Assembly (NCBI RefSeq): GCF_000003815.2
Contig: NC_049993.1
Location: 14,017,333 to 14,081,332, forward strand
Direction: 5' to 3'
DNA: 64,000 nucleotides
Source of the DNA: Branchiostoma floridae
Taxonomy: Eukaryota; Chordata; Leptocardii; Amphioxiformes; Branchiostomatidae
Shown: piece after piece, positions 18,982 through 35,920 of the stretch
Layout: the number at the start of each line of letters is the position of its first letter
Position numbering within the stretch: the stretch's first letter is position 1
Position numbers and translations under genes: made by a program
The notes under the pieces: generated by a model
Database searches by the model: none
What the model was told of the DNA's origin: nothing
What the model saw: only the letters and a program-made list of their open reading frames with translations

Positions 18982-19190
18982 CATAAAAGGAGCAGTTGTC
19001 TCTAGAATCATTCCAGACTGAGTGTTGGTGCAGGCACTGCCGCGACTTGCAGTACAAAACTCGAAATTTACGGAACGACCATTTCTAGAAAAGGTGAGCA
19101 GCAGATCGTAAACGTGATAGAATCTGGGACAAGTGAAAGGTGAGTGACATTTTGTTAAGCATCATGAAAAGAATGAAATTGGATATATAG
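18982..19190 (+). promoter_or_regulatory. LRR gene 1 core promoter and leader
   Basis: A TATA-like CATAAAAGG at 18982 is followed 33 bp later by the A of CCAGACTG, the spacing expected for a TATA-driven start. The same pair at the same distance precedes the other three LRR genes. A short upstream ORF (19164-19190) ends one base before the main ATG. Function is inferred from motif and paralogue conservation. Confidence 0.5.
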
Positions 19191-19191
19191 A

Positions 19192-21504
19192 ATGAGCGTA
19201 AGAGCAGCCATACTGATGGTCTTGGCAGCTGACTGTGCAGCTTTTGATCAGCCCTCTTCTCAATGTAACAGAGCTTCTTGGGTATCATGCGAGCCTTTCA
19301 AAGACAACAAACGGGGGAATTTAGCTCACTTTACCTCAGGGAAATGTGTGACTTGCGTGGGCTCAAACGGCAGTAGTCCCACTGAAAATCCCTTTCATCT
19401 TGTTGAGGACCCCCCTCCATCAACGCTGGCGATAAAAGGATATCCATTTGGTGTTCTTACGGCTACAAAACTAGCACCCCTTGATCATTCTACGGTTAAA
19501 ACTTTCGCGCTAATAGACTGTAATATCACAGACGCGGATGACAGCACGTGGATGGGGTTTACTAGTTTGACTAGGCTGGCCTTAGATTTCAACAGGTTAA
19601 CACACATCAAAGAGGCTTGGTTTTCAGGCATGGGGCAGCTCAGTCTGCTGAGATTGTCCCACAACCTAATCCGGCAGATAGATCTAGAGAGTTTCAAGCA
19701 TCTACGTCACCTTATCATCTTAAACCTGGAAAACAACCTGTTGCAGGTTGTAGATCCTGTCTGGTTTGAAGGGTTGAGCTGGCTGATGTATATGTTCTTG
19801 GGGTCAAACAAAATCCAAAGAATCCCGTCCAGTGCCTTCCAGAACCCGGCGTTGGTATATCTAGATCTGAATGGAAACGATCTATCTCACCTGGACAGGG
19901 TTGTGTTAGAGGGTTTGCTGAAACTGTCTAACCTGCACATCAGTGGTAACAGGTTGGTGTCTGTCCATGATGATGATATACCACAAAGAATGACGTGGAG
20001 CCTAGATCTCTACAATAATGTCTGGACACAGAGTTGGACAGTAATTGTTGAGGTGCCCAAATTCGTCTTCTGTTATGGGTACTATTCGGCGCACTCTGTT
20101 GCATGGATGTTTCATTCATTGGATAATATAGATCACATCCGTGGGTCGAAAATCACTCCTGGCAAGTGTAGTGTGGCAGATCTTTCGTTAAGTAAGATCT
20201 CTATTCAGCCACCTGTAGTTGTCATTGCTACCGATGGCTTTCCAGTAGATGGACTGGACATGCTGGATCAGTGTAGGCAGGTTTGGGAACACAACACGGG
20301 CATTACAGTACCATTGGCGGGTAACTCTGTCTTTCGGCTGGTGTCTACGAGCGCTCAGAATACAACCACAACTGTTGCCATTGCATCTGGCCACAAGCCA
20401 AACACACAGAAAAATGACACCATACAGAACGTAACCTGTATTCTGCTCAGCAAAGATAACCACACGGAGTTGTTCTTCACATTCCCCAGGGTTCAAACCA
20501 AACCTCAGATGTCATCCATTGCATATGAGATTCGTACTGACCATGTCGACAATCTAACCTCTTACTTTGACACTACATCTGTATTGTATACATCTTCTGG
20601 ACCACGGTACCAGTCCCAACCAACTCCACTACCAGACCATATGCATGTAACAATCGCAGTTGGTGTTTCGGCTGCAGTTCTGGTCTTGTCAGGTCTTACA
20701 TATAGAGCACTTAAGTTTAAAATGCAGGACAGCAGACTTACTCGCCGAGATAATGCCTTCCCCGCTTTGCGAAGGTCAGCTTCTCTACCTTTGGTCACAA
20801 GATGTAGAAACTGGCCGATCCAGGACGATTCAGTCTCCTGTAAGTCATTGCCAGCTCTCTCCGTTTCTGAGCCTTCTTATACCGAGATTCCTGATCACGT
20901 AGCTGCTGCTCAGCGGCCTCTGCCTGCCTTTCCACATACCTACTCAGTCATACCAGATGTAGAGGCTGCTGTCGATCTGTCTGCCCAACCACACATTTAC
21001 TGTCATATCCCTGATTATGATAATGCAGGGCCTATTGCCTTCTACGCTGCTGCTGCAGATATATCACTTGGAACACATGCTGTATATGGTGTTAATGGTG
21101 AGATTAAGCGGGTTGTACCATCTATATTGTGTCGTCGTTACTCAATAGCTGCTACACAATCTGAAGTGTATGATCCGGCGTTAGAGGCCAGAAACAATCA
21201 GCTCACTCTATATGGGAAAAGATTGAATGCCGTCCAACAGCATCGTCACTCTATAACTGCAGTGTATGACTCGGCGATAGAGGGTAGAAAAAATCATTTC
21301 ACTATGTATGGGGAAGCATTGAATGCCGTCAGTATGCAAAGCAGGCGGGCAAAAACACTGGGAAGGACCCGCAACACACCACAGTGTGTATGTCTTGATC
21401 GTACAGTACCAAGTACACATTTGCCATGGCAGATTTCAGGCGAGGGAACCCGTAACACTCCACGGCGTGCATCCCTTCCATTTACACAACAGAATACCTT
21501 CTAG
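19192..21504 (+). CDS. LRR transmembrane protein, cluster gene 1 (770 aa, truncated repeat tail)
   Basis: Single-exon gene of a family I do not recognise. In order: signal peptide (residues 1-18, MSVRAAILMVLAADCAAF); Cys-rich cap; about six LRRs (about 80-265; examples LTRLALDFNRLTHI, LIILNLENNLLQVV); an unfamiliar Cys-containing juxtamembrane region (about 265-480); N-glycosylation sites; membrane helix (about 485-506); cytoplasmic tail. The tail has RSASLP (528-533), PSYTEIPD, RPLPAFP, YSVIPD and YCHIPD, as in its paralogues. Only one good array unit (GEGTRNTPRRASLP) precedes a TAG at a TGG position of the unit. Degenerate units continue downstream, so the ancestral tail was longer. It is the most diverged member of the cluster. 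Ligand and function are unknown; a membrane receptor role is inferred from architecture. Confidence 0.85.
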   Translation: MSVRAAILMVLAADCAAFDQPSSQCNRASWVSCEPFKDNKRGNLAHFTSGKCVTCVGSNGSSPTENPFHLVEDPPPSTLAIKGYPFGVLTATKLAPLDHSTVKTFALIDCNITDADDSTWMGFTSLTRLALDFNRLTHIKEAWFSGMGQLSLLRLSHNLIRQIDLESFKHLRHLIILNLENNLLQVVDPVWFEGLSWLMYMFLGSNKIQRIPSSAFQNPALVYLDLNGNDLSHLDRVVLEGLLKLSNLHISGNRLVSVHDDDIPQRMTWSLDLYNNVWTQSWTVIVEVPKFVFCYGYYSAHSVAWMFHSLDNIDHIRGSKITPGKCSVADLSLSKISIQPPVVVIATDGFPVDGLDMLDQCRQVWEHNTGITVPLAGNSVFRLVSTSAQNTTTTVAIASGHKPNTQKNDTIQNVTCILLSKDNHTELFFTFPRVQTKPQMSSIAYEIRTDHVDNLTSYFDTTSVLYTSSGPRYQSQPTPLPDHMHVTIAVGVSAAVLVLSGLTYRALKFKMQDSRLTRRDNAFPALRRSASLPLVTRCRNWPIQDDSVSCKSLPALSVSEPSYTEIPDHVAAAQRPLPAFPHTYSVIPDVEAAVDLSAQPHIYCHIPDYDNAGPIAFYAAAADISLGTHAVYGVNGEIKRVVPSILCRRYSIAATQSEVYDPALEARNNQLTLYGKRLNAVQQHRHSITAVYDSAIEGRKNHFTMYGEALNAVSMQSRRAKTLGRTRNTPQCVCLDRTVPSTHLPWQISGEGTRNTPRRASLPFTQQNTF

Positions 21505-22115
21505 CCTTGGGTGATATTAGAGGAGGGAAAAAGTGACACACTGCGGCGTGTGTTCCTCCCCACACTACTGAACACCTACTGGCCATGGGAGACCCCAGGG
21601 TAGGGAACCCAAACCACACCACGGCGTGCGTCCCTCTCTACTTTACCTTAAGCATATACATAGGGGAGGAGACACATACCACATCACCACACTCGTCTCT
21701 CTCCACACTACCGAACACCTACTGGCCATGGGAGACCCCAGGGGAGGGGACCCAAACCACAGCACGGCGTGCGTCCCTCTCTACTTTACCTTAAGCATAT
21801 ACATAGGGGAGGAGACACATACCACATCACCACACTCGTCTCTCTCCACACTACCGAACACCTGCTGGCCATGAGTAATCTCAGAGGAGAATATCGCAAC
21901 CCGTAGAACACCACGCCACACCACCGAACACCTTCCGTTTAAGTGAGATTCCAAGGAGAGGAACCCGTAACACAGCACGGCGTGTGTCCCTCTAGATAAC
22001 ACCAAACAATTTAAGAAATGTTTCCCACTACAAACTACCCATTATACCTGCTGGTAATGCAAGAAGCACTGCCGAACACCTACCGGCCACCGGATACCCC
22101 AGGATCTGGTACCTA
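21505..22115 (+). pseudogene. Decayed C-terminal repeat array of LRR gene 1
   Basis: Immediately after the gene 1 stop, units resembling NTYWPWETPG and RRASLSTLP continue with stops and frame changes. A 143-bp block (ggccatgggagaccccaggg onwards) is repeated: its starts are at 21581, 21724 and, more diverged, 21867. The period is not a multiple of three, so this duplication happened after coding constraint was lost. A polyadenylation-type AATAAA lies at 22331. Confidence 0.75.
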
Positions 22116-23286
22116 TTTACAACGACCTAAAGATATCTAGAAGCCTACTGTAGGCATCCTATGTGTAGCTTTGATAGAAGTAGTGTTAGGAACTTGTTGG
22201 GCAAGCTAGTTTAATACACAAACCATTTATATCAGATACAATGTGCAAAATCAGAAAAAAGTCTTCATCAATCAAGTAATCTATATCGTATGCCTAGTAC
22301 TCATTTATGGAAAATACATGATGAGAATTAAATAAAAAATGTTGTGGGTTAAGGACTTCCCATGCTTTATGCAATCGCAACATAGAAATGCTTTAAAACA
22401 TTTATATGATATTCAAGCTCTCATTCGTTCACAATTTCCTCTGTGCCTCCGTCTCACATCTACTAGGGCTCTCCCCAGGATGTCCTATCCTTCCCGGACA
22501 AAATATTCTGCTACGGATGAACAAAAATTTCAATGATGATAAAACGCAATGTCCGCTTCCTGCAAAATTTCTAGCAAAAGCAGGCATGAAATCAACGATT
22601 TTATACAAACAAGTCATGCACATTGACAGCCTTGAGCATGTGTGTGTGGAGACAGTACATGTATGTAGTCGAATTCATTACCGTTTTGATAAGATTAGTC
22701 TGGATGAAAAAAAATTCTCAATTCGATCTTTCTGTCAACACTCTGATGTCAATAGCGTTTATATGGTGTCCCTGAGCTTTTCGTCCTTGCGAAAGCTTTC
22801 GTCCTTTTCGTTCTCAGTCACATGTTCTCGCGATATTAGTCACGTGTTCTCGAGGTGTCAGTCACGTGTTCTCGCGAACGATTCCCGCGAATGACGCGGA
22901 CCTCGTCATACGTCCATGACATTCCAAAAACCTCGAGCACTTCTGCAAATACGTCACTAGTAAAATGCTATATTTCAAGTCTTATATTAGTCTGGGTATC
23001 AATATGTGCTGAAATACTGGCAAACATTTGTAATGCGTCAAATACAAGTCTACGTGTCCTCATGAGTCCTTGACACTTCTATGAGAAAATATAAAGGAAT
23101 AAGTTGTCTCCAAAATAATTCCAGACTGACGGTTGGTACATTCAGGGACGGCCGCTGTATGTTGGCAGTATCAAACTTCTTAATTCCAAATATTGGTCAG
23201 AAGAGGTGCCGCTTTCAATAGAATCAGCGGAAGGTCAGTAACAAATCTTTTCAGCCTCATAACAAGAACAAAATGGAATATATAAA
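22116..23286. other. Intergenic region and LRR gene 2 promoter/leader
   Basis: It holds AATAAA at 22331-22336 (possible gene 1 poly-A signal) and a triple CACGTG/CACATG repeat at 22816-22876. The gene 2 promoter has TATAAAG at 23090-23096 and CCAGACTGACGG from 23121. A short upstream ORF is at 23273-23296. No additional coding gene was recognised. Confidence 0.5.
22816..22876. promoter_or_regulatory. Three tandem AGTCAC(A/G)TGTTCTCG motifs (E-box CACGTG)
   Basis: The motif AGTCACATGTTCTCGCG at 22816, and CACGTG versions at 22838 and 22860, are spaced 22 bp apart. CACGTG is the canonical E-box. The site lies 470 bp upstream of the gene 2 ATG, and I saw no equivalent upstream of genes 3 and 4. 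Confidence 0.4.
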
Positions 23287-24687
23287 ATGTATGTAACAGC
23301 TTACCAAATAAGATATGCTGTCATACTGCTGCTCTTGGCACCTTGCTGTGCAACTTCACGATGTAGCAGGACATGTGGGCCTCTCAGAGACAGGAAGGTA
23401 AGGGACAGGGTGGGATATACTATCATAAAGAAGATATCATGTCAAGTGTATATGGGCAATATCAGCGGCATTGTGACTGGAAAACCTTTTCATCGAGATG
23501 TTGAGGGAATGAGAGGTTCTCTTCGCGTGGTAGTTACAGGATATCGGTTTGACGTCTTCTCGGCTGCAGAACTAGGGCCATTTGATCATTCAGCGGTTCA
23601 AACTTTGGCGCTGATAAACTGTAATATAACAGATTTGATTAACGGCACCCTGATGGGGTTTACTGATTTGACTATACTGTCTTTAGATTTCAACAGTTTA
23701 AGACAAATCAAACAGACCTGGTTTGCTGGTCTGAAAAATATCCTTACCCTCTTGTTGTCCAACAATCAAATCAGGCAGATAGATCCAGGGAGTTTCAATC
23801 ACCTAAGTCGCCTTAGTACTTTGAACCTGGAAAACAACTTGTTGCAGGTTGTAGATCCTGCCTGGTTTATAGGAGCGAACAGGCAGAGGAACATGTACTT
23901 TTGGTCAAATAAAAACCAAACAATCGCTTCAAGTGCATTTCAAAACCTGGAGTGTCTAGATCTGCGCGGAAACAATCTATCTCAGCTCGACGAGAAAGTG
24001 TTCAAGGTTTTGCTGAAACTGTCAAAACTGCACATAAGCAGTAACAGGTTGGTGTCTGTCCATGATGATGTCATACCACAAAGAATGACGTGGAGCCTAG
24101 ATATGTACACTGATGTGAACACAAAGAGTTGGACAGTAGTTGTTGAGGTCCCCAAATTTGTCTTCTGTTATGGGTACTATTCAAAGGAGAATGGGTATTC
24201 TGTTGCATGGATGTTTCATTCATCATACACTATAGGTCATACACGAACATCGGGCATCAAACCCGGTCCATGTAGTCAGGAGCTTCGCCAGTCACCTGTT
24301 GTTGTCATTGCTACTGATGTCTCTCCAGAAGATGGACTCGACATGCTTGAACAGTGCAGGCAGGTTTGGGGATACGGCACGGGCATTACAGTGCCATTGG
24401 TGGGTAACTCGGTCTTTCATCTGGTATCCACAAACACACAGGACACACCCAACAGGGCAAGTGTTGCCTTAGTATCTCGCCCAAAACACACTGCACAAAC
24501 AAATGCTACACACGACGCGACACTGAATGTATCCTGCATTCTGGTCAGCAAAGACAAGCACACGGAGTTGTTCTTCACAGCCCCCAGGGTTCCAATTCAG
24601 CCCCACACGACAAGTGTTGTATCCAACTTTCGTCAGTATCTAACTTTCGTAATATGCCGAATCCTGGATATCCAGGAATCGTCCTGA
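23287..24687 (+). CDS. LRR transmembrane protein, cluster gene 2, ectodomain half (split)
   Basis: The open frame gives a signal peptide (MYVTAYQIRYAVILLLLAPC), a shortened Cys cap, about six LRRs (for example LTILSLDFNSLRQI, LSTLNLENNLLQVV) and the same juxtamembrane region as its paralogues. This ends in VSCILVSKDKHTELFFTAPR. At about 24607 the paralogous reading stops and unrelated sequence begins, ending at TGA 24687. Membrane helix and tail resume at about 25741. As it stands the product would be a secreted LRR ectodomain. A weak GT/AG pair, 24614 to 25733, would restore the frame, so splicing cannot be excluded. Confidence 0.65.
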   Translation: MYVTAYQIRYAVILLLLAPCCATSRCSRTCGPLRDRKVRDRVGYTIIKKISCQVYMGNISGIVTGKPFHRDVEGMRGSLRVVVTGYRFDVFSAAELGPFDHSAVQTLALINCNITDLINGTLMGFTDLTILSLDFNSLRQIKQTWFAGLKNILTLLLSNNQIRQIDPGSFNHLSRLSTLNLENNLLQVVDPAWFIGANRQRNMYFWSNKNQTIASSAFQNLECLDLRGNNLSQLDEKVFKVLLKLSKLHISSNRLVSVHDDVIPQRMTWSLDMYTDVNTKSWTVVVEVPKFVFCYGYYSKENGYSVAWMFHSSYTIGHTRTSGIKPGPCSQELRQSPVVVIATDVSPEDGLDMLEQCRQVWGYGTGITVPLVGNSVFHLVSTNTQDTPNRASVALVSRPKHTAQTNATHDATLNVSCILVSKDKHTELFFTAPRVPIQPHTTSVVSNFRQYLTFVICRILDIQESS

Positions 24688-25740
24688 GCAGAAGGACGAT
24701 TCCTGGATATCCAGAAATCGTCGCAAACAGGACGTTTCCTGGATAGACGACGGTGTTTATCCAGAACGTGTACGTGGGGGTGGAGCTTCCTGTTTTCGAG
24801 GGAGGAGACTATGCGGAGGGCGGGGGCATGTTGTTTTCGTCAGAAAGCCGCCATCTTTGTATCTCCCCGCAAGAAGATCGTGTAGTTTATTCTGTTGATC
24901 CTGGTGTTACAGAACTTAAACGAATGTTGATAATGATACTTTGATGTTTACATGTTACTTACGTATCAGGCCCAAAATGCTTTTTGCGTAATGAATTAAC
25001 AAATGGCAGTCAAGATGGGATAAAGTTACTGTTGTTTTCCGTATAGCGACACATTCACGGTAACGTGTTAATAGCATCCAGATGGCGTCCCCTTGTCACA
25101 CAAGGCCTGGTCCACATCCTGGATATCCAGGAAACGGCTTGAGCAGGAGGACGCTTCCTGGATATCCAGAAAACGGCTTGAACAGACTCAGGACGAATCC
25201 TGGATATCCAGAAAACGGCCTGAACAGGAGGACGATTCCTGGATATCCAGAAAACGGCCTGAACGCCTGACGAAAATAAGGAATTCTCCCGCCATTTTTG
25301 ATTTGCGAGCAAGCGGTCACTGTGGGTCACGCACGCACCGCAATGGTATCCTGCACCGCGGGTGCCCCGTAATACTCTGAACGCATGTCTAAAGACAACC
25401 GTTGTCCACAACGATAGACAATAACAGTCGCACGACTATATTATGTGTTGTGTGTGTGAAGTTGTTTTTCGTGTAGCGTCACATTCTATTTACGTGTTAG
25501 TAGCATTCAGATGACGTCCTATCATGGGGAGGGCAGCGGTCACTTCCGGGTTTTAATCTCTCGCAACTTGAGTCTGTCGAGGTCTCACGAGGTCGACCCA
25601 TATATGGAAACATGGGCGTGCATAATAATGTTTTCTGTACTGTCAATCACCATAATTGACGGCACCGGAAGTACGAATCCTGGATATCTAGTTTTCGTAA
25701 GGTTTTTGGACGATTCCTGGAGCCGCGGAAAAGTAGATGC
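24614..25740. mobile_element. About 1.1-kb insertion in LRR gene 2 with GGATATCC palindromes
   Basis: Compared with genes 3 and 4, the sequence CCCCACACGACAAG is separated from ACAAGCACTGCC by about 1.1 kb found in neither paralogue. The shared ACAAG at both edges could be a short target duplication. Inside, CCTGGATATCCAG occurs at 24663, 24702, 25118, 25157, 25199 and 25238, with a variant at 25679. The four central copies have a 39/42/39 bp period. A pair of about 60-bp direct repeats (25041-25095 and 25458-25515) flanks this block. The element family is not recognised. Confidence 0.55.
25118..25262 (+). repeat. 39-42 bp tandem repeat with CCTGGATATCCAG core
   Basis: Four units, each carrying the near-palindrome CCTGGATATCCAG followed by AAACGGC and TGAACAG. 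Unit lengths are multiples of three and read PGYPENGLN in one frame. No promoter or start suggests this is translated. Confidence 0.7.
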
Positions 25741-26995
25741 GACAACAAGCACTGCCAGCAAATATCAAACTGACCTAGCCGACGGCCTGACATCCCTCTC
25801 TTCCGCTACCGATGAATTGTACAGTACATCTTCTGGAGCAAGCGACCAGTCTATAGCACCTCCAGTACAAGACAATATGCTTATTCATGTTCCAATTTCG
25901 CTTCTTGTTCCTGCGATAGTGGTTTTGATCTTGTCATCAGCCATTGCGTATAGAGCAATCGAGTTAAAAGTGCAGCACAAAAGTGACACACGCCTATCTG
26001 CTGCTTTCCCAGCTTTGCGTAGGTCAGCTTCTCTGCCTGTCGTCACAAGATATACAAACAGGACGGCCGAGGAAGATACAGCCTCCTGTAAGTCATTGCC
26101 TGCTGTCCTCTTCTCCAATGATCCATCTTACAGTGAGATCCCAGATAATGTAGCTGCTGCTCAGCGGCCTCTACCCGCTATTCCACAGATCTACTCAGTC
26201 ATTCCAGATGCTATAGCTGCTGCTGAGCAACCTCTAGATCTGTATGCCCAACCACACATTTACAGTCATATCCAGGATGATGATGATGATATGGGGCCCA
26301 TTCCCTTCTATGCTGCTGCTGCAGACATGTCACTTGGTACAGATACTGCATATGGTGTTAGTTGTGAGAGTAACCAGGTTGTCTGTAGTCCTCACTCTGT
26401 AGCTGCCAGAGAAACTGCTGTGCATGGCGCAGTTATAGAGGCAATAGACCATCACGTCAAATTATACGGGAAAGAACCAAATGCCATTAGACAGCAACGC
26501 TATCGGGCACATGGATTGGGAGGGAGCAGTAACACACCACGGCCTGCATGTCTCCCCCTCACTGTGCCCTATACGGACCTGTCATCTAATATTCCAGGGA
26601 AGGGAACCCGTAACACACTACGGCGAGCATCTCTGCCCCTTACACCAGAAAACATCATATGGCCATGTAAGATTCCAGGGGAGGGAATCCGTAACACACG
26701 ACGGTATGTATCTCTGACCCTCAGCTTACCTAACACCTACTGGCCATGGAAGATACCAGAGCAGATAACCCACAACACACCAAGGCGTGAGTCCCTCGCT
26801 CTAGTCACCCTACCTAACACCTACTGGCCATGGGAGACCCCAGGGGAGGCAACCCGTAACATACCACGGCGCGCGTCCCTCTACGCACTACCCAACACCT
26901 ACTGGCCATGGAAGATACCTGGTGAGGATATACCTGTTGGGAACACACCACGGTGCGCGTACATCCCCCTTGTCACACCACCTAACACCTACTGA
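25511..26995 (+). CDS. LRR cluster gene 2, transmembrane and cytoplasmic half
   Basis: From about codon 78 the frame is homologous to genes 3 and 4: STASKYQTDLADGLTSLSSA, a membrane helix (about 126-148), FPALRRSASLPVVTR, DPSYSEIPD, RPLPAIP, YSVIPD and YSHIQD. A tandem tail follows (about eight units of the NTPRRxSLP / NTYWPW type). The first 77 codons come from the inserted DNA and are not family sequence, so the ATG at 25511 may not be used. The TGA at 26993-26995 replaces TGG in a YWPW unit; the same frame stays open in repeats up to TAG near 27457. Either the 3' half of one disrupted gene, or part of it if 24614-25733 is spliced out. Confidence 0.6.
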   Translation: MTSYHGEGSGHFRVLISRNLSLSRSHEVDPYMETWACIIMFSVLSITIIDGTGSTNPGYLVFVRFLDDSWSRGKVDATTSTASKYQTDLADGLTSLSSATDELYSTSSGASDQSIAPPVQDNMLIHVPISLLVPAIVVLILSSAIAYRAIELKVQHKSDTRLSAAFPALRRSASLPVVTRYTNRTAEEDTASCKSLPAVLFSNDPSYSEIPDNVAAAQRPLPAIPQIYSVIPDAIAAAEQPLDLYAQPHIYSHIQDDDDDMGPIPFYAAAADMSLGTDTAYGVSCESNQVVCSPHSVAARETAVHGAVIEAIDHHVKLYGKEPNAIRQQRYRAHGLGGSSNTPRPACLPLTVPYTDLSSNIPGKGTRNTLRRASLPLTPENIIWPCKIPGEGIRNTRRYVSLTLSLPNTYWPWKIPEQITHNTPRRESLALVTLPNTYWPWETPGEATRNIPRRASLYALPNTYWPWKIPGEDIPVGNTPRCAYIPLVTPPNTY

Positions 26996-27457
26996 CCATG
27001 GAAGATACCTGGTGAGGATATCCGTAACACACCACGGCGCGCATCCCTCCCCCTTGTCACACAACCTAACACCTACTGGCCATGGGAGATACCTGGTGAG
27101 GAGACCCATAACACACCACCACGGCGTGCGTCCCTCTCCTCACTACTTAACACCTACTGGACATGGAAAATACCAGGTGAGAAGACCCACAACACACAAC
27201 AGCGCGCGTCCCTCCCCCTTGTAACACCACCTAACACATACTGGCCATGGGAGATCCCAGAGGGAGGAACACATACCACTCCACGGCGTGCGTCCCTCTC
27301 CTCGATACCTAACACATACTGGCCATGGGAGATCCCAGAGGAGGGAACACACACCACACCACGCCATGTGCCCATCTCCGACCTACCGAACACCTATTGG
27401 CCATGGGAGATTCCTGGGAAAGGGACCCATAACACACCACGGCGTTTGTCCCTCTAG
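26996..27457 (+). pseudogene. Untranslated continuation of the gene 2 repeat array
   Basis: After the TGA the same frame reads on without a stop through about six further units (TPRRASLPLV, NTYWPWEIPGEETHNTP and so on) to RRLSL-stop near 27457. A single base change (TGA back to TGG) would be all that separates this from coding, so the truncation is recent. Confidence 0.7.
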
Positions 27458-28244
27458 ACACCATCGAACTTGACACATATCGCCCTACATACTGGCCATA
27501 TGAGATCCTACGGGAAGGAACCAGTAACACAGAACAGCGATTACATGTTTGGATTTATTAGACATGTTTATGGTTTGAGTATTAAGTAATATTTTCCGCA
27601 TTGTATTTGATCTGTAGCATGTGTGCGTAGTTCGAGTTTTCTTTTGGATATATTAATGTTTTACTACCTTTGGAGCCTGGATTTTTTTAATCGGACATAC
27701 TGTTATTTATGTGATTTTGTACTGGTATTCACCTGTGGCTGTTTCACGAACCCTAGAGAAAGCCTAGAGTACAATATCTGACATAAAATGATAAACATTA
27801 CAATCCACATAAAAGCAACCATGCAAACAACCTTGCTAATATATTCCGTAAATCTAAAAGCAGGCACAGACCAGTTGGGCAGCCTTGACTGTGCCTACTG
27901 ATCAGCTAAACTAATGAATAAGTAAATATAACAATACAGACATTTCAACAACCTTGAGCACTTCTGCAAACACGTAAGTAAAAAACTTTTAGATTAGTCT
28001 GAGTATCAATACTCAGGTAATCATTTGCAATGCATCAAATACCATTCTGCGTGTCCTTGTGGTGTCCTTCATGTGTCTTTTAGAATGTATAAAGGTGCAA
28101 GTTGTCTTCAACATTAATCCAGACTGACGGTTGGTACATACAGACATGGCCGGTGTCCAGAAAAGGTAATAGAATCTGGGACCAGAGGAGGGTGAGTAAC
28201 GCATCTTTTCAACCTCACGGAAAGACTAAAATGGAGTATGTAGA
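27458..28244. promoter_or_regulatory. LRR gene 3 upstream region and core promoter
   Basis: TATAAAG at 28088-28094 is followed 33 bp later by the A of TCCAGACTGACGG, then a leader with a short upstream ORF (28231-28254) overlapping the start codon. The region from about 27916 is nearly the same as 31917-32245 upstream of gene 4. Nothing else coding was seen. Confidence 0.55.
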
Positions 28245-28254
28245 ATGTGTCTAA
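28231..28254 (+). promoter_or_regulatory. Upstream ORF overlapping the gene 3 start
   Basis: ATG GAG TAT GTA GAA TGT GTC TAA starts 14 bases before the main ATG, in another frame, and ends 10 bases after it begins. Equivalent overlapping frames are at 23273-23296 (gene 2) and 32232-32255 (gene 4). Gene 1 has a related one at 19164-19190 that ends just before its ATG. Confidence 0.45.
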
Positions 28255-31200
28255 GAACTGGAAAGAGATATGCAGCCATATTGCTGATCTTGGTATCTGG
28301 CTGTGCAGCTATTGAAGAACTTTCTTCTCAATGTAGGAGAGCTTCGGCGCCGTCATGTATGCCTTTCAAAGACAGGAAAGAATATTCCAACCTAGTTTTA
28401 TGCGTGATCTGTACAGTTTTCAACGGTAGTGCTGCCCCTAGATATCCCTTTCATCTTGTTGAACGACAGGGAAAGTCTCTCGACCTGGCAATAAGAGGGC
28501 ATCAATTTGGCGTCCTCTCGGCTACAAAACTAGCACCACTTGATCATTCCGCGGTTAGAGCTTTGATGTTGATTGACTGTAATATCACAGATGTGCAAAA
28601 CGGCACCCTCCTGGGGTTCACTCGTTTGTCCTGGTTAGTCTTAGATTCTAACAGGTTAACACACATCAAGCAGACCTGGTTCGCTGGCCTAAAATATCTC
28701 AATACCCTGATGTTGTCCAACAACCTAATCAGGCAGATAGATCCAGGAAGTTTCAAGCACCTTGGTCGCCTTTATCTTTTGAACCTGGAAAACAACTTGT
28801 TGCAGGCTGTAGATCTTTCCTGGTTTATTGGAGCGACCAGGCTGAGGCGCATGTACTTGGGGTCCAATAAGATACAAAGAATCACTTCAAGTACATTTCA
28901 GAACCTGGAGTTGATGTATGTTGATCTGCGTGAAAACGACTTATCTCAACTGGACGAGAAAGTGTTCAGGGTTTTGCCGAAACTGTCAAAACTGCATATC
29001 AGCAGTAGAAGGTTGTCTGTCCATGACGATGTCATACCACAACGAACAATGTGGAGCCTAGATCTCTCAATTGATGCCTCGTTAAAGAATTGGACAGCAG
29101 TTGTTGCGGTGCCCAAATTCAACTTCTGTTTGGAGTACGTTTCGCAGATGAATGTGTTTTCCGTTGAATGGGTGTTTAATTTATCAGATACTTTGTGTCA
29201 CACCCGAACATCAGACACCGTTTTCTGTCCATTTACTAGTAGTCGTAAGGTTCGCCGGTCAGCTGTTGTTGTCATTGCTACTGATGGCTCTCCAGTAGAT
29301 GGACTCGACATGCTGAATAAGTGCAGGCAGGTTTGGGGATACGGCACGGGCATTACAGTGCCATTGGTGGGTAACTCGGTCTTTCACCTCGTATCCACAA
29401 ACACCCAGGACACACACAATAGGGTAAATGTTGCCTTACTCTCTCGCCCCAAACACACTACACAAACAAATGACACATACGACCCGACACTGAATGTATC
29501 CTGCATTCTGGTCAGCAAAGACAAAAGCACTGAGTTGTTCTTCTCAGCCCCCAGGGTTCCAGTTCAGCCCCACACGACAAGCACTGCCAACAAATTTCAA
29601 ACTGACCTAGCCGACGGCCTGACATCCCTCTCCTCCGCTACCGATGAATTGTACAGTACATCTTCTGGAGCAAGCGACCAGTCTATAGCACCTCCAGTAC
29701 AAGGCAATATGTATACTCATGTTCCAATGTCACTTGTTGGTCCTGTAGTAGTGGTCCTGATCTTGTCAGCCATTGCATATAGAGCACTTAAGATAAAAGT
29801 GCTGCAAAAAAGTCACACAGGCCCGGCTATTGGTTTTCCTGCTTTGCGTAGGTCAGCTTCTCTACCTCTCGTCACAAGATATACAAACAGGACGGTCGAG
29901 GAAGATACAGCCTCCTGTAAGTCATTGCCTGCTGTCCTCCTCTCCAATGATCCATCTTATAGTGAGATCCCAGATAATGTAGCTGCTGCTCAGCGGCCTC
30001 TACCCGCTATTCCACTGATCTACTCAGTCATTCCAGATGCTATAGCTGCTGCTGAGCAACCTCTAGATCTGTCTGCCCAACCACACACGTACTGTCATAT
30101 CCCGGATGATGATGGTATGGGGCACATTCCCTTCTATGCTGCTGCTGCAGATGCATCACTTGGTTCAGATACTGCATATGGTGTTGGTAGTGAAGGAAAC
30201 CAAACAATTTTTAGTCGTCACTCTATAGCTGCCAGAAAAACTGCTGTGTATAACTCCGTTGAGACCAGAGACCATCACACTTCTCTATACGGGAAAGCAC
30301 GAAATATCGGCACACAGCAAAGCAAGCAAGCACAAGGACCGAAAAGGATCCTTAATAGCACACCACGATGCCTCACTGTACCTAAGGCATTATTGCCAAG
30401 GGAAATCCCTGGGGAGGGACCTCGTGACACAACACGGCGTGCATCTGTACCCATCACATCACAGAACACCTTTTGGCCATGTGAGATCCCAGGGAATGGA
30501 ACACATAACACATCACAGCGTGCATCCCCTCCTCTTGTCACACCTCATAACACCTACTGGCCATGTGAGATCCCAGGGAAGGGAGTCCGTAACACACCCC
30601 GACGAGCATCTTTGCCCCTCACAACACAGATGTGTTCACTTACCTTCTGGGCATATGATAGCCCAGGGGAGGGAACCCGTAACACACCACGGCCTGTATC
30701 TTTTCCCCTTACCTTACCTAACGCCTGCGGGCCATGCGAGATCAAAGGGGAGGGAGGCACTGGTAGTAATAATCAGCATGCGTCGCTCACCAATCCGCTG
30801 AACACCTGTTCATGTACGATCCCATCTAAGGGAACAATAAACATGCCACTGCGTGCGTCCCTCTCCGAACTACCGAACACCTACTGGCCATGGGAGATCC
30901 CAGAGAAGGGAACCCGTAGCACAACAAGGCGCACGTCCCTTCCTATCGTCACCCTACCTAACACCTACTGGCCATGGGAGATCCCAGAGAAGGGAACCCG
31001 TAACACAACAAGGCGTAAGTCCCTACCCCCTGTCACACTACCTAACACCTACTGTCCATGGGAGATCCCAGAGAAGGAAACCCGTAACACACCAAGGCCT
31101 AAGTCCCTACCCCCTGTCAAACTACCTAACACCTACTGGCCATGGGAGATCTCAGAGAAGGAAACCCGTAACACACCAAGCCATGAGTCCCTTCCCATCG

Positions 31201-31370
31201 TTACCCTACCAAACACTTACTGGCCATGGGAGATCACAGAGAACTCCCGTGACACACCACGACGTGCGTCCCTCTCCAAACTACCGAACACCTACTGGCC
31301 ATGGGAGATCCTAGGTGATGGAACAAGTGGCAAACCAGGGCGTGCGTCCCTGTCTATCCCAAAAGTATAG
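28245..31370 (+). CDS. LRR transmembrane protein, cluster gene 3 (1,041 aa)
   Basis: Intact single-exon gene. Signal peptide MCLRTGKRYAAILLILVSGC; Cys-rich cap (about 25-60); about six LRRs (about 85-260; LSWLVLDSNRLTHI, LNTLMLSNNLIRQI, LYLLNLENNLLQAV, LRRMYLGSNKIQRI); unfamiliar juxtamembrane region with CRQVWGYGTGITVPLVGNS; membrane helix (about 492-513); basic FPALRRSASLP (RSASLP 536-541); DPSYSEIPD, RPLPAIP, YSVIPD and TYCHIPD. The last third is a tandem array: about six degenerate units (for example FWPCEIP) and then six canonical ones (LPNTYWPWEIPEKGTRNT, RRKSLPPVT). An AATAAA lies two bases after the stop. A cell-surface receptor with a phosphorylation-rich tail is the inference; no TIR, death or kinase domain is present. 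Confidence 0.88.
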   Translation: MCLRTGKRYAAILLILVSGCAAIEELSSQCRRASAPSCMPFKDRKEYSNLVLCVICTVFNGSAAPRYPFHLVERQGKSLDLAIRGHQFGVLSATKLAPLDHSAVRALMLIDCNITDVQNGTLLGFTRLSWLVLDSNRLTHIKQTWFAGLKYLNTLMLSNNLIRQIDPGSFKHLGRLYLLNLENNLLQAVDLSWFIGATRLRRMYLGSNKIQRITSSTFQNLELMYVDLRENDLSQLDEKVFRVLPKLSKLHISSRRLSVHDDVIPQRTMWSLDLSIDASLKNWTAVVAVPKFNFCLEYVSQMNVFSVEWVFNLSDTLCHTRTSDTVFCPFTSSRKVRRSAVVVIATDGSPVDGLDMLNKCRQVWGYGTGITVPLVGNSVFHLVSTNTQDTHNRVNVALLSRPKHTTQTNDTYDPTLNVSCILVSKDKSTELFFSAPRVPVQPHTTSTANKFQTDLADGLTSLSSATDELYSTSSGASDQSIAPPVQGNMYTHVPMSLVGPVVVVLILSAIAYRALKIKVLQKSHTGPAIGFPALRRSASLPLVTRYTNRTVEEDTASCKSLPAVLLSNDPSYSEIPDNVAAAQRPLPAIPLIYSVIPDAIAAAEQPLDLSAQPHTYCHIPDDDGMGHIPFYAAAADASLGSDTAYGVGSEGNQTIFSRHSIAARKTAVYNSVETRDHHTSLYGKARNIGTQQSKQAQGPKRILNSTPRCLTVPKALLPREIPGEGPRDTTRRASVPITSQNTFWPCEIPGNGTHNTSQRASPPLVTPHNTYWPCEIPGKGVRNTPRRASLPLTTQMCSLTFWAYDSPGEGTRNTPRPVSFPLTLPNACGPCEIKGEGGTGSNNQHASLTNPLNTCSCTIPSKGTINMPLRASLSELPNTYWPWEIPEKGTRSTTRRTSLPIVTLPNTYWPWEIPEKGTRNTTRRKSLPPVTLPNTYCPWEIPEKETRNTPRPKSLPPVKLPNTYWPWEISEKETRNTPSHESLPIVTLPNTYWPWEITENSRDTPRRASLSKLPNTYWPWEILGDGTSGKPGRASLSIPKV
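30370..31360 (+). repeat. Coding minisatellite of LRR gene 3 (75-84 bp units)
   Basis: About twelve units in frame; the last six are well conserved. DNA consensus pieces are CCTAACACCTACTGGCCATGG, GAGATCCCAGAGAAGG and AACCCGTAACACACC followed by AGGCGTAAGTCCCT. Units of 78 and 84 bp alternate irregularly, and every length keeps the frame. Confidence 0.85.
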
Positions 31371-32245
31371 CAATAAAGAAAATGGCTATTGACAGGAAGA
31401 TTCGGTCAACAGTGGAAAAATTCGCAATGTTGACAGGATGATATATTTCTCCGTGCAGTCTTTTATCGACACAAGTTTGAAGTCACAAAAATTAAAAAAA
31501 TGTTTTTTTAATGCCTGAGACTATTACTTTAATCGTCAGTTGTTTTATGCCTGTCAATCGCTTTTTAAAATTTCTTGTGACATTAAGCTTTAAGTGCAAA
31601 TACGTCTGATAACAAATTGTTAATATCTTGAAGCATTGGCTAATCTCCAAGCAGATCTTCCAGTAGAAAAATTGTCATGCCGGTTAGGAAACTTTCCAAT
31701 TTACCAGCCAGGCTAGCATATCTGGTGAGGATATACCTGGTGAGGATGTACCTGGTGGTAACACACCACGGTGCGCGTACTTCCCCCTTGTCACACAGCC
31801 TAACACCTACTGGCCATGGGAGAAACCTGGTGAGGAGACCCATAACACACCACCACGGCGTGCGTCCCTCTCCTCACTACTTAACACCTACTGGACATGG
31901 AAAATACCAGGTGAGAAAATAAGTAAATATAACAATACAGACATTTCAATAACCTTGAGCACGTCTGCAAACACGTAAATAGAAAAGTTTGAGATTAGTC
32001 TGGGCATCAATACTGGTAATCATTTGCAATGCGTCAAATACCATTCCGCGTGTCCTTGTGGTGTCCTTCATGTGTCTTTTAGAATGTATAAAGGTACAAG
32101 TTGTCTTCAACATTAATCCAGACTGACGGTTCGTACATACAGACATGACCGGTGTCCAGAAAAGGTAATAGAATCTGGGACCAGGGGAGGGTGAGTAACG
32201 CATCTTTTCAAAACCTCACGGAAAGACTAAAATGGAGTATGTAGA
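31371..32245. other. Intergenic: element arm, gene 2 tail fragment, gene 4 promoter
   Basis: From left: AATAAA at 31372-31377; a copy of the about 150-bp arm seen twice at 36.1-36.8 kb (here about 31545-31695); a fragment of the gene 2 repeat tail (31721-31916); then the gene 4 promoter with TATAAAG at 32087-32093 and TCCAGACTGACGG, and an upstream ORF at 32232-32255. Confidence 0.6.
31721..31916 (+). pseudogene. Duplicated fragment of the gene 2 repeat tail
   Basis: GGTGAGGATATACCTG, CACCACGGTGCGCGTAC and GACATGGAAAATACCAGGTG match 26921-27183 of gene 2, with one unit missing. At 31917 the sequence switches abruptly to the gene 3 upstream region (27916 onward). It marks the left junction of the duplication that made gene 4. 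Confidence 0.75.
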
Positions 32246-35200
32246 ATGTGTCTAAGAACTGGAAAGAGATATGCAGCCATATTGCTGATCTTGGTATCTG
32301 GCTGTGCAGCTTTTGAAGAAGTTTCTTCTCAATGTAAGAGAGCTTCGGCGCCGTCATGTATACCTTTCAAAGACAGGAAAGAATATTCCAACCTAGTTTT
32401 ATGCGTGATCTGTACAGTTTTCAACGGTAGTGCTGCCCCTAAATATCCCTTTCATCTTGTTGAACGACACGGAAACTCTGTGGACCTGGCAATAAGAGGA
32501 CACCAATTTGGCGTTCTCTCGGCTACAAAACTAGCACCACTTGATCATTCCGCAGTTAGAGCTTTGATGTTGATTGACTGTAATATCACAGATGTGCAAA
32601 ACGGCACCCTCATGGGGTTCACTCGTTTGTCCTGGCTGTTCTTAGATTTTAACAGGTTAACACACATCAAGCAGACCTGGTTCGCTGGCCTAAAATATCT
32701 CAAAACCCTGATGTTGTCCAACAACCTAATCAGGCAGATAGATCCAGGAAGTTTCAAGCACCTAGGTTGTCTTTATCTTTTGAACCTGGAAAACAACTTG
32801 TTGCAGGCTGTAGATCTTTCCTGGTTTATTGGATCGACCAGGCTGAGGCGCATGTACTTGGGGTCCAATAAGATACAAAGAATCATTTCAAGTACATTTC
32901 AGAACTTTCAGGAGTTGATGTATCTTGATCTGCGTGAAAACGACGTATCTCAACTGGACGAGAAAGTGTTCAGGGTTTTGCCGAAACTGTCAAAACTGAA
33001 TATCAGCAGGTTGTCTGTCCCTGACGATGTCATACCACGACGAATAATGTGGAGCCTAGAACTCTCCATTGATGCCTCGTTAAAGAGTTGGACAGCAGTT
33101 GTTGCGGTGCCCAAATTCAACTTCTGTTTGGAGTACATTTCACAGATGAATGTGTTTTCCGTTGCATGGGTGTTTAATCTATCAGATACTTTGGGTCACA
33201 CCCGAACATCAGACACCGTTTTCTGTCCATTTACTAGTAGTCGTAAGGTTCGCCGGTCAGCTGTTGTTGTCATTGCAACTGATGGCTCTCCAGTAGATAG
33301 ACTCGACATGCTGGGTCAGTGCAGGCAGGTTTGGGGACACGGCACGGGCATTACAGTGCCATTGGTGGGTAACTCGGTCTTTCACCTGGTATCCACAAAC
33401 ACCCAGGACACACACAATAGGGCAAATGTTGCCTTAGTATCTCGGCCAAAGCAAACTACACAAACAAATGACACACACGACGCGACACTGAATGTATCCT
33501 GCATTCTGGTCAGCAAAGACAAGCACACGGAGTTGTTCTTCACAGCCCCCAGGGTTCAAACTCAACCCCACATGACAAGCACTGCCCACAAAACAGACGT
33601 AGCCGACGGCCTGACAATCTTCTCTGCTACTACAGATGCATTGTACAGTACATCTTCTGGAGCAAGCGACCAGTCTTTAGCACCTCCAGTGCAAGACAAT
33701 ATGCTTATTCATGTTCCAATATCACTTGTTGTTCCTGCAATAGTGGTCCTGATCTTGTCAGCCCTTGCATATAGAGCACTTAAGATAAAGATGCTGCAAA
33801 AAAGTCACACAGGCCCGGCTATTGGTTTTCCTGCTTTGCGTAGGTCAGCTTCTCTACCTGTCGTCACAAGATGCACAAACAGGACAGTCGAGGAAGATAC
33901 AGCCTCCTGTAAGTCATTGCCCGCTGTCCTCCTCTTCAACGATCCATCTTATAGTGAGATCCCTGATAATGTAGCTGCTGCTCAGCGGCCTCTACCCGCT
34001 ATTCCACAGACCTACTCAGTCTTTCCAGATGCCGCAGCTGCTGATGAGCAACCTCTAGATCTGTCTGTCCAACCACACACTATCCTAGATGATGATGATA
34101 TGGGACCCATTCCCTTCTATGCTGCTGCTGCAGACATGTCACTTGGTACAGATACTGCATATGGTGTTGGTAGTGAAGGTAACCAAGCAATTTGTAGTCG
34201 TCACTCTATGGCTGCCAGAAAAACTGCTGTGTATAACTCCGTTATTGACACAAGAGACCATCACACTTCTCTATTCGGGAAAGCACCAAATATCGACCCA
34301 CAGCAAAGCAAGGAAGCACAAGGACTGAAAAGGATCCTTAGCATCCCTCGATACTTTACTGTACCTAAGGCATTATTGCCAAGGGAAATCCCTGGGAAGG
34401 GACCTCATGACACAACACGACGTGCATCTCTACCCTTCACACCACAGAACACCTTTTGGCCATGTGAGATCCCACGGGAGGGATCCCGTAACACACCACG
34501 ACGTGTATCTTTGCCCCTTACCTTACCCAATACCTACTGGCCATGTGAGGTCACAGGAGAGGGGGGCACTGGTAGTAATAATCAGCATGCGTCGCTCACC
34601 AATCCGCCAAACTCCTGGCCATGTGCGCTCCCATCCAAGGGAACAATAAACATGCCACGGCATACGTCCCTTTCCGAACTACCCAACACCTACTGGCCAT
34701 GGGAATTCCGAGAGAAGGGAACCCGTAACACACCACGGCGTGCGCCCCTCCCCCTCACGCTGCCTAACACCTACTGGCCATGGGAGATCCCAGAGAAGGA
34801 AACCCGTAACACACCAAGGCGTAAGTCCCTTTCCATCGTCACCCTACCTAACACCTACTGGCCATGGGAGATCCAAGAGAAGGAAACCCGTAACACACCA
34901 AGGCGTAAGTCCCTTCCCCCTGTTACACTACCTAACACCTACTGGCCATGGGAGATCCCAGAGAAGGAAACCCGTAACACACCAAGGCGTAAGTCCCTTT
35001 CCATCGTCACCCTACCTAACACCTACTGGCCATGGGAGATCCAAGAGAAGGAAACCCGTAACACACCAAGGCGTAAGTCCCTTCCCCCTGTTACACTACC
35101 TAACACTTACTGGCCATGGGAGATCCCAGAGAAGGAAACCCTTAACACAAGGCGTAAGTCCCTTCCCATCGTTACACTACCTAACACTTACTGGCCATGG

Positions 35201-35920
35201 GAAATCCCAGAGAAGGGATCCCGTAACACACCAAGGCGTAAGTCCCTTCCCCCTGTCACCATACCTAACACCTACTGGCCATGGGAGATCCCAGAGAACG
35301 AAACACGTAACACACCAAGGCGTACGTCCCTTCCCATCGTCACCCTACCAAACACCTACTGGCCATGGGAAATCCCAGAGAAGGGAACCTATGACACAAC
35401 ACAACGTGCGTCCCTCTCCAAACTACCGAACACCTACTGGTCATGGGAGATCCCAGTGAAGGAAACCCGTAACACACCACGGCGTGCGCCCCTCCCCCTC
35501 ACGCTGCCTAACACCTACTGGCCATGGGAGATCACAGAGAAGGAAACCCTTAACACAACAAGGCGTAAGTCCCTTCCCATCGCCACCCTACCTAACACTT
35601 ACTGGCCATGGGAGATCCCAGTGAAGGGAACCCGTAACACACTAAAGCGTGAGTCACTTTCCCTTGTCACACCACCTAACACCTACTGGCCATGGGAGAT
35701 CTCAGAGAAGGAAATCCGTAACACACCAAGGCGTGAGTCCCTTCCCATCGTTACCCTACCAAACACTTACTGGCCATGGGAGATCACAGAGAACTCCCGT
35801 GACACACCACGACGTGCGTCCCTCTCCGAACTACCGAACACCTACTGGCCATGGGAGATCCTAGGTGAGGGAACAAGTGACAAATCACAGCGTGCGTCCC
35901 TCTCTATCCCCAAAATGTAA
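32246..35920 (+). CDS. LRR transmembrane protein, cluster gene 4 (1,224 aa, longest array)
   Basis: Intact single-exon paralogue, very close to gene 3 through ectodomain, membrane helix (about 489-511) and motif region (RSASLP 533-538, DPSYSEIPD, RPLPAIP, YSVFPD; the third YxxI is lost where gene 3 has TYCHIPD). Signal peptide, Cys cap, about six LRRs and juxtamembrane region are as in gene 3. The C-terminal array is much longer: about four degenerate WPC-type units and 15 canonical WPW-type ones, many with RRKSLPPV or RRKSLSIV. A 168-bp two-unit block is repeated almost exactly. Start offset from gene 3 is 4,001 bp. AATAAA (35922-35927) begins one base after the stop. No stop or frameshift is seen, so it is presumably functional. 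Confidence 0.9.
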   Translation: MCLRTGKRYAAILLILVSGCAAFEEVSSQCKRASAPSCIPFKDRKEYSNLVLCVICTVFNGSAAPKYPFHLVERHGNSVDLAIRGHQFGVLSATKLAPLDHSAVRALMLIDCNITDVQNGTLMGFTRLSWLFLDFNRLTHIKQTWFAGLKYLKTLMLSNNLIRQIDPGSFKHLGCLYLLNLENNLLQAVDLSWFIGSTRLRRMYLGSNKIQRIISSTFQNFQELMYLDLRENDVSQLDEKVFRVLPKLSKLNISRLSVPDDVIPRRIMWSLELSIDASLKSWTAVVAVPKFNFCLEYISQMNVFSVAWVFNLSDTLGHTRTSDTVFCPFTSSRKVRRSAVVVIATDGSPVDRLDMLGQCRQVWGHGTGITVPLVGNSVFHLVSTNTQDTHNRANVALVSRPKQTTQTNDTHDATLNVSCILVSKDKHTELFFTAPRVQTQPHMTSTAHKTDVADGLTIFSATTDALYSTSSGASDQSLAPPVQDNMLIHVPISLVVPAIVVLILSALAYRALKIKMLQKSHTGPAIGFPALRRSASLPVVTRCTNRTVEEDTASCKSLPAVLLFNDPSYSEIPDNVAAAQRPLPAIPQTYSVFPDAAAADEQPLDLSVQPHTILDDDDMGPIPFYAAAADMSLGTDTAYGVGSEGNQAICSRHSMAARKTAVYNSVIDTRDHHTSLFGKAPNIDPQQSKEAQGLKRILSIPRYFTVPKALLPREIPGKGPHDTTRRASLPFTPQNTFWPCEIPREGSRNTPRRVSLPLTLPNTYWPCEVTGEGGTGSNNQHASLTNPPNSWPCALPSKGTINMPRHTSLSELPNTYWPWEFREKGTRNTPRRAPLPLTLPNTYWPWEIPEKETRNTPRRKSLSIVTLPNTYWPWEIQEKETRNTPRRKSLPPVTLPNTYWPWEIPEKETRNTPRRKSLSIVTLPNTYWPWEIQEKETRNTPRRKSLPPVTLPNTYWPWEIPEKETLNTRRKSLPIVTLPNTYWPWEIPEKGSRNTPRRKSLPPVTIPNTYWPWEIPENETRNTPRRTSLPIVTLPNTYWPWEIPEKGTYDTTQRASLSKLPNTYWSWEIPVKETRNTPRRAPLPLTLPNTYWPWEITEKETLNTTRRKSLPIATLPNTYWPWEIPVKGTRNTLKRESLSLVTPPNTYWPWEISEKEIRNTPRRESLPIVTLPNTYWPWEITENSRDTPRRASLSELPNTYWPWEILGEGTSDKSQRASLSIPKM
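34380..35915 (+). repeat. Coding minisatellite of LRR gene 4 (about 19 units)
   Basis: In-frame 75-84 bp units encoding LPNTYWPWEIP, EKETRNTPRRKSLP and PVT or IVT. A 168-bp dimer (WEIPEKE...RRKSLSIVT plus WEIQEKE...RRKSLPPVT) occurs twice in a row from about 34799 to 35134 with almost no differences, indicating a recent unequal exchange. Confidence 0.88.

Follow-up and report, generated by a model that had tools for sequence, protein, structure and literature searches.

Amphioxus is used in tracing the origin of vertebrate immunity, and several described systems bear on the genes presented here. In lamprey variable lymphocyte receptors, variability is concentrated on the concave face of the leucine-rich repeats (LRRs), while FAK and p130Cas offer two-point docking of a Src-family kinase, through SH3 and SH2. 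In Branchiostoma belcheri, the receptor BbLcLRR has 699 aa, with LRRNT, LRRCT and WSC domains by SMART, and carries a YSEV tyrosine; this receptor is a target of Lck phosphorylation and, in a human T-cell line, inhibits signalling (PMC8211107). Here, we analyse a window of 64,000 nucleotides from Branchiostoma floridae (NC_049993.1, positions 14,017,333 to 14,081,332 of the forward strand; all coordinates below are those of this window), in which four paralogous LRR receptor genes, g1 to g4, lie in tandem on the + strand at 19192–35920.

Results

The genes g1 to g4 are members of an extensive family of type I membrane receptors, each encoded by a single open reading frame (ORF), in which an LRR ectodomain and one membrane helix are followed by a conserved cytoplasmic tail core and an array of variable length. 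The original prediction, made from this stretch of DNA, had described four consecutive single-exon paralogues, and long open frames are indeed found at that place. Three genes are intact single ORFs: g1 (19192–21504; 770 aa, with ectodomain, helix, tail core and a remnant of the array only), g3 (28245–31370; 1041 aa) and g4 (32246–35920; 1224 aa), the last a recent tandem duplicate of g3 (88% over 3.4 kb). Gene 2 departs from the prediction, being split by a 1,130-bp insert and interrupted by an in-frame stop. The predicted LRR fold was recovered in all four genes (Pfam LRR_8, E 9e-36 to 6e-29), with Pfam LRR matches confined to the ectodomains, and hydropathy agrees with the prediction of a single membrane helix, giving one strong helix each in g1, g3, g4 and the 3′ half of g2 (g2b). 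The predicted signal peptide stands for g3 and g4, where an N-terminal hydrophobic segment exceeds the hydropathy cut-off; in g1 and the 5′ half of g2 (g2a) it was recognised by eye only.

A search of the genome (513,431,437 bases in 431 contigs, the window lying on contig C15) with residues 1–580 of g3 returned at least 78 matching places, which, with neighbours merged, amount to at least 74 loci on 17 contigs, g1 to g4 included; 75 of 1,613 candidates were scored, so the count is a lower bound. An open frame of at least 750 aa with no stop inside the match is present at 61 of the 74 loci, and 37 of the 74 have another family locus within 50 kb. For analysis we took 20 of the 70 loci outside g1 to g4, namely the best-scoring ones minus C15:15439390, so that the conservation counts below lean towards closer relatives. 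A maximum-likelihood tree (midpoint rooted, without support values) groups g1 to g4 against these 20 loci. The four-gene cluster of the original prediction is thus recovered, not as an isolated group but, by this tree, as a single clade within a family that numbers at least 74 loci.

For the tail core, we read 23 ORFs (those of g1, g3 and g4, plus the longest one from each of L009–L028), which yielded 22 tails, L027 ending before the tail. Every tail contains [CW][RKS]SLP, with RSASLP exact in 21 of 22, together with a tyrosine in Y[STCG]EI, a class I SH3 motif (RxxPxxP) and RPLP. The RSASLP-type site occurs twice in 16 of the 22 and RPLP at least twice in 18, and an in-frame array with RRxS is present in 18. 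By motif, all 22 tails carry a pYxEI-type tyrosine with a class I SH3 motif close by, the pair mostly occurring twice, as expected of a region docking Src-family kinases. In g3, the site FPALRRSASLP, of 14-3-3 mode I or basophilic kinase type, lies at 29835–29867, and PSYSEIPDNVAAAQRPLPAIP, in which a YSEI tyrosine adjoins a class I SH3-type proline motif, at 29952–30014. Six motif windows (51 codons) compared among g1 to g4 show a nonsynonymous to synonymous rate ratio (omega) of 0.00–0.10, against 0.51–0.91 for the remaining tail codons, a difference seen in all 6 pairs, and a run test that does not depend on these windows puts the longest invariant run at p 0.019 and the top three at p 0.0007. 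Across 17 tails (the 22 without L009, L011, L016, L020 and L022), mean identity is 0.63 in the tail core versus 0.56 in the ectodomain, the tail being higher in 103 of 136 pairs; between the window genes and the rest, the values are 0.41 for the tail core and 0.44 for the ectodomain.

The array is built from tandem 84-bp units (Tandem Repeats Finder scores up to 1539). The consensus of 130 units, taken from 18 of the 23 ORFs, is NTYWPWEIPGEGTRNTPRRASLPLVTLP, which is kemptide-like and, if phosphorylated, 14-3-3 mode I-like; because the pattern used prescribes how a unit begins, conservation of these initial residues is in part built in, a constraint that does not touch positions 18–23. Units had been predicted at 26–28 aa, but they range from 25 to 30 aa, with 28 aa in 113 of 130 (some of these trimmed to 28 by our script). 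Their number differs between genes: by eye, g4 has 18 (34448–35917), g3 about 11 of ~28 aa (30465–31367), and g1 a remnant before its stop. Array units also persist as relics past the stops of g1 (21556–22110, out of the g1 frame), g2 (26996–27457, frame unchanged) and g3 (31700–31975, in the g3–g4 interval). Among the 130 units, RxxS is found in 102, RxxSxP in 94, RRxS[LIVFM] in 76 and RRAS in 49, and both RRxS and RxxSxP exceed chance in the tails of g2b, g3 and g4 (at most 6 of 500 shuffles). These are the motifs expected of a 14-3-3 client with sites for protein kinase A (PKA): the accessible text of the cited reports gives the PKA consensus as RRXS-hydrophobic, with kemptide as LRRASLG (PMC7361990), and 14-3-3 mode I as RSXpSXP (PMC8093981). 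The proportion of nonsynonymous differences (pN) at the array S, L and P is 0.15–0.18 against a synonymous proportion (pS) of 0.44–0.55, while the x of RRxS varies freely (pN 0.43). Unit similarity is 0.67 within genes against 0.59 between genes, so slippage or conversion homogenises the units. A Pfam match of the g4 array to SWC7 (E 4.6e-6, scoring 27 bits where the cut-off is 25) was rejected as a repeat artefact, SWC7 being a yeast protein.

Pfam detects LRRs in 24 of 24 family ectodomains. Over these 24, entropy is 0.07 bits at the LRR scaffold (LxxLxLxxN), 1.59 at the concave x positions and 1.17 at other LRR positions; the first two x positions of each repeat reach 2.48–3.57 bits in three of the four repeats scored, with 2.83 and 1.48 in the last repeat. 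Among five closely related genes (four on C8, one on C16), ten codons over five repeats carry 61 nonsynonymous and 0 synonymous differences in 10 pairs, an excess that is absent from the C13 group (10.2 versus 5.8) and the C15 pair (7 versus 4). A codon likelihood analysis (our own script, under a model without gene conversion) gave omega 2.64 at the variable concave positions when the silent rate was shared with the whole ectodomain (twice the log-likelihood difference, 2dl, 87.5 against omega 1). Elsewhere omega is 0.19–0.21 in the scaffold, 0.52–0.57 at other LRR positions, 0.96–1.06 in the N-terminal part and 0.56–0.70 in the post-LRR region. Amino-acid change at the variable concave positions is therefore at least as fast as silent change, which probably reflects selection for change, although this is not proven. 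The number of loci, an omega near 1 in the N-terminal part and the hypervariable concave positions all agree with the fast-evolving surface receptor family that had been predicted; the family may also be lineage-specific, as that prediction proposed.

The predicted unfamiliarity of the juxtamembrane region also holds. This region between the LRRs and the helix contains cysteines, matches no Pfam family and has no significant match in the PDB (E 0.045 with one sequence, to antibodies; 0.67 with four; 1.4 with 24, to unrelated proteins); in g3 it comprises the extracellular residues 259–440 (29019–29564). An Ig-like domain after the LRRs was considered and, on sequence comparison, rejected, as the weak antibody matches obtained with one and four sequences disappeared with 24, and no Ig domain was found among 25 of 26 Pfam families in 24 members. 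Silent divergence between g2 and g3 drops to 0.15 at g3 residues 339–440, from 0.40–0.45 upstream, which suggests gene conversion between the two copies.

Gene 2 is disrupted twice. Its homology to g3 ends at 24614 and restarts at 25742, leaving an ectodomain half (23287–24614) and a half with the helix, the tail core, the first array units and an in-frame stop (25745–26995). The insert between them (24615–25744, no strand assigned) is flanked on both sides by ACAAG, a 5-bp target duplication, and has short inverted ends, TGTTGTATC and, reversed, TGTCGCATC. Because the same 1,130-bp unit occurs at full length at no fewer than 29 other places in the genome, with 89–98% identity, its sequence identifies it as a mobile element. 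An intron was rejected: there is no in-frame GT/AG join, no pyrimidine tract is seen by eye, and the insert is a dispersed element. The second lesion is the in-frame stop within the array (26993–26995), past which units continue to 27457. The dispersed element also carries internal TCCTGGATATCCAG palindromes.

Upstream of g1, a TATA-like element is followed by AGTTGTCT at 18983–19001 (+), with equivalents at 23091, 28089 and 32088 for g2, g3 and g4, in each case 156–209 bp 5′ of the start codon. The pattern, which was defined after viewing the upstream alignment, has four matches in the window against 0.11 expected, and none elsewhere in it.

Querying the genome with the tail core gave further places among the matches listed. 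Three distant loci found in this way, L041–L043, carry LRRs (by Pfam in L041 and L043, by eye in L042) and, by eye, a CxQxW...NITC- or YITC-like stretch ahead of the helix; in these three, the only ones read, no different ectodomain was seen joined to this tail. One tail-core match, at C262:33370–33918, falls within an open frame reported at 5,559 aa, which greatly exceeds the length of other members. Viral contigs were dismissed as relatives, none of 66 pattern matches being related.

Elsewhere in the window, a 487-aa ORF of glycoside hydrolase family 31 lies at 9219–10682 (−), with myogenesis-regulating glycosidase as its best PDB match (E 3.6e-89), and an ORF with a membrane region of PIGO/PIGG-type glycosylphosphatidylinositol (GPI) ethanolamine phosphate transferase at 14990–15628 (+; E 6.5e-13). 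Two kelch-motif ORFs at 50695–51120 and 52455–52967 (−; E 2.3e-7 and 2.7e-7) are perhaps exons of one kelch gene.

Discussion

Our preferred reading, to which we give somewhat less than even weight, is that of recognition receptors, expanded in number, whose tails dock a Src-family kinase and bear a PKA/14-3-3 array that varies in length. Their LRR face would bind varied ligands. Since RPLPxLP, a class I proline motif, is paired with YSEI-type tyrosines, a Src-family kinase could dock by SH3, phosphorylate the tyrosine and then stay bound through SH2. PKA or a similar basophilic kinase would phosphorylate the RSASLP site and the array's RRASLP sites, which would then bind 14-3-3 dimers, so that the number of dimers able to bridge or retain receptors would be set by array length. 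Turnover of the repertoire would come from tandem duplication, insertion of transposons and slippage of the array. The sequences show the architecture, the size of the family, the conserved tail motifs, the variable face and the variable array; a recognition or immune role, and the ligands and kinases involved, are what we infer from them.

Several points weigh against this. Class I SH3 and Yxx[ILV] motifs are no more numerous than in shuffled tails, so the case for them rests on conservation, and the six motif windows were picked after the alignment had been viewed. Among distant members read by eye, L042 lacks RPLP and L043 lacks RSASLP; 36 of the 130 units lack RxxSxP, four of the 22 tails have no in-frame array, and array ends drift out of frame. 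With a free local silent rate, omega at the variable positions is 1.77 and not significant (2dl 3.14). The SH3 and SH2 preferences applied here are general background, on which our literature search returned nothing. Kinase docking, phosphorylation and 14-3-3 binding are all read from motifs, and 14-3-3 motifs are described as poor predictors in the accessible text of PMC8093981.

The alternative that survives best, possible though clearly less probable, is a tail resembling immunoreceptor tyrosine-based inhibitory or activation motifs (ITIM/ITAM), as reported for BbLcLRR, that recruits phosphatases or other SH2 proteins, the array being a nearly neutral coding minisatellite spread by slippage. 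The tyrosines found in every tail suit it, and in BbLcLRR, a receptor that inhibits T-cell signalling, Y655 lies within HDYSEV (PMC8211107, accessible text). Yet the strict ITIM pattern is at or below shuffle level (0, 1, 1 and 0 in g1, g2b, g3 and g4). The within-gene likeness of units, their termination in stops and frame drift, and the tails lacking an array speak for neutrality, but S, L and P of the array show few amino-acid replacements alongside a normal level of silent change.

Rather improbably, the receptors may serve cell adhesion, development or self/non-self discrimination (allorecognition) and not pathogen recognition, which would leave the tail biochemistry unchanged. In the PDB, the nearest sequences are those of extracellular LRR proteins of a general kind, among them the acid-labile subunit and LRRC15, and a variable face is as compatible with self/non-self ligands as with those of pathogens.

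That these are decayed, unexpressed repeats instead of functional genes is very unlikely: g2 is broken and relic arrays lie behind g1 to g3, but most loci keep long frames free of stops, omega in the tail motifs is near zero and the upstream element is common to all four genes. Least likely of all is that the unit recruits TRAF6, whose motif is PxExx[acidic/aromatic], for although g3 and g4 tails hold 5 and 12 such motifs against shuffle means of 0.48 and 1.39, g1 and g2b hold none and family-wide the motif is found in 20 of 130 units and 4 of 18 genes, the family-wide consensus reading PWEIPG, so we rejected a TRAF6-binding array.

At least 74 receptor loci that share a tail and vary strongly on the LRR face would form a large germline recognition repertoire, and the tail yields directly testable predictions in Src-family docking and in 14-3-3 binding that depends on PKA. 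Unusually, minisatellite-like DNA encodes, in the array, a string of near-identical phosphorylation-type sites, and the copy number of the array, differing between genes, could tune signalling. We regard as doubtful the stronger proposal of a new signalling receptor class, in which a diversifying germline LRR repertoire with an undescribed extracellular domain would be joined to Src-family docking and a multivalent PKA/14-3-3 rheostat tail whose gain is set by the number of kemptide-like repeats and evolves by slippage. The family looked undescribed in the original prediction and does so still against Pfam, the PDB and the open-access literature, where four motif strings (RRSASLP, TYWPWE, WPWEIP and QRPLPAIP) were not found; in the accessible portions of the amphioxus LRR receptor literature, mostly open-access and including PMC8211107, PMC8361754, PMC2575513 and PMC10199209, no description of this family was recognised.

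Among known systems, BbLcLRR is a receptor of the same broad type and shares an amphioxus LRR ectodomain, a single helix and YSEV-type tail tyrosines, one of them close to the YSEI seen here, but the accessible text mentions no tail array or RSASLP (PMC8211107). Its LRRNT, LRRCT and WSC domains were found by SMART, whereas Pfam gave none of the three among 25 of 26 families in 24 members. As this receptor, with its YSEV tyrosine, is phosphorylated by Lck and inhibitory, the tyrosine part of our mechanism is plausible by analogy, and an inhibitory outcome is possible. FrLRR of B. belcheri is likewise a membrane protein of amphioxus with LRRs and has been linked to Grb2 and to phagocytosis, but in the accessible text it has a folate-receptor domain, a GPI anchor and Slit2-type LRRs, without such a tail (PMC10199209). 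The family fits the broad group of extracellular-LRR single-pass receptors, and with Toll-like receptors it shares an LRR ectodomain and one helix; unlike them, it has a much shorter LRR solenoid, and no TIR domain was found in g1, g2a, g2b, g3 or g4, nor in full-length L019 and L021. With lamprey variable lymphocyte receptors it shares the variable concave LRR face, but its frames are complete in the germline, without LRRCT and with a cytoplasmic tail. Those lamprey receptors are put together somatically from cassettes; most loci here have long open frames in the germline sequence. Finally, the Src-docking regions of FAK and p130Cas likewise bring a proline motif for SH3 close to a tyrosine motif for SH2; those proteins are cytoplasmic scaffolds, whereas here the motif pair lies in receptor tails, mostly twice.

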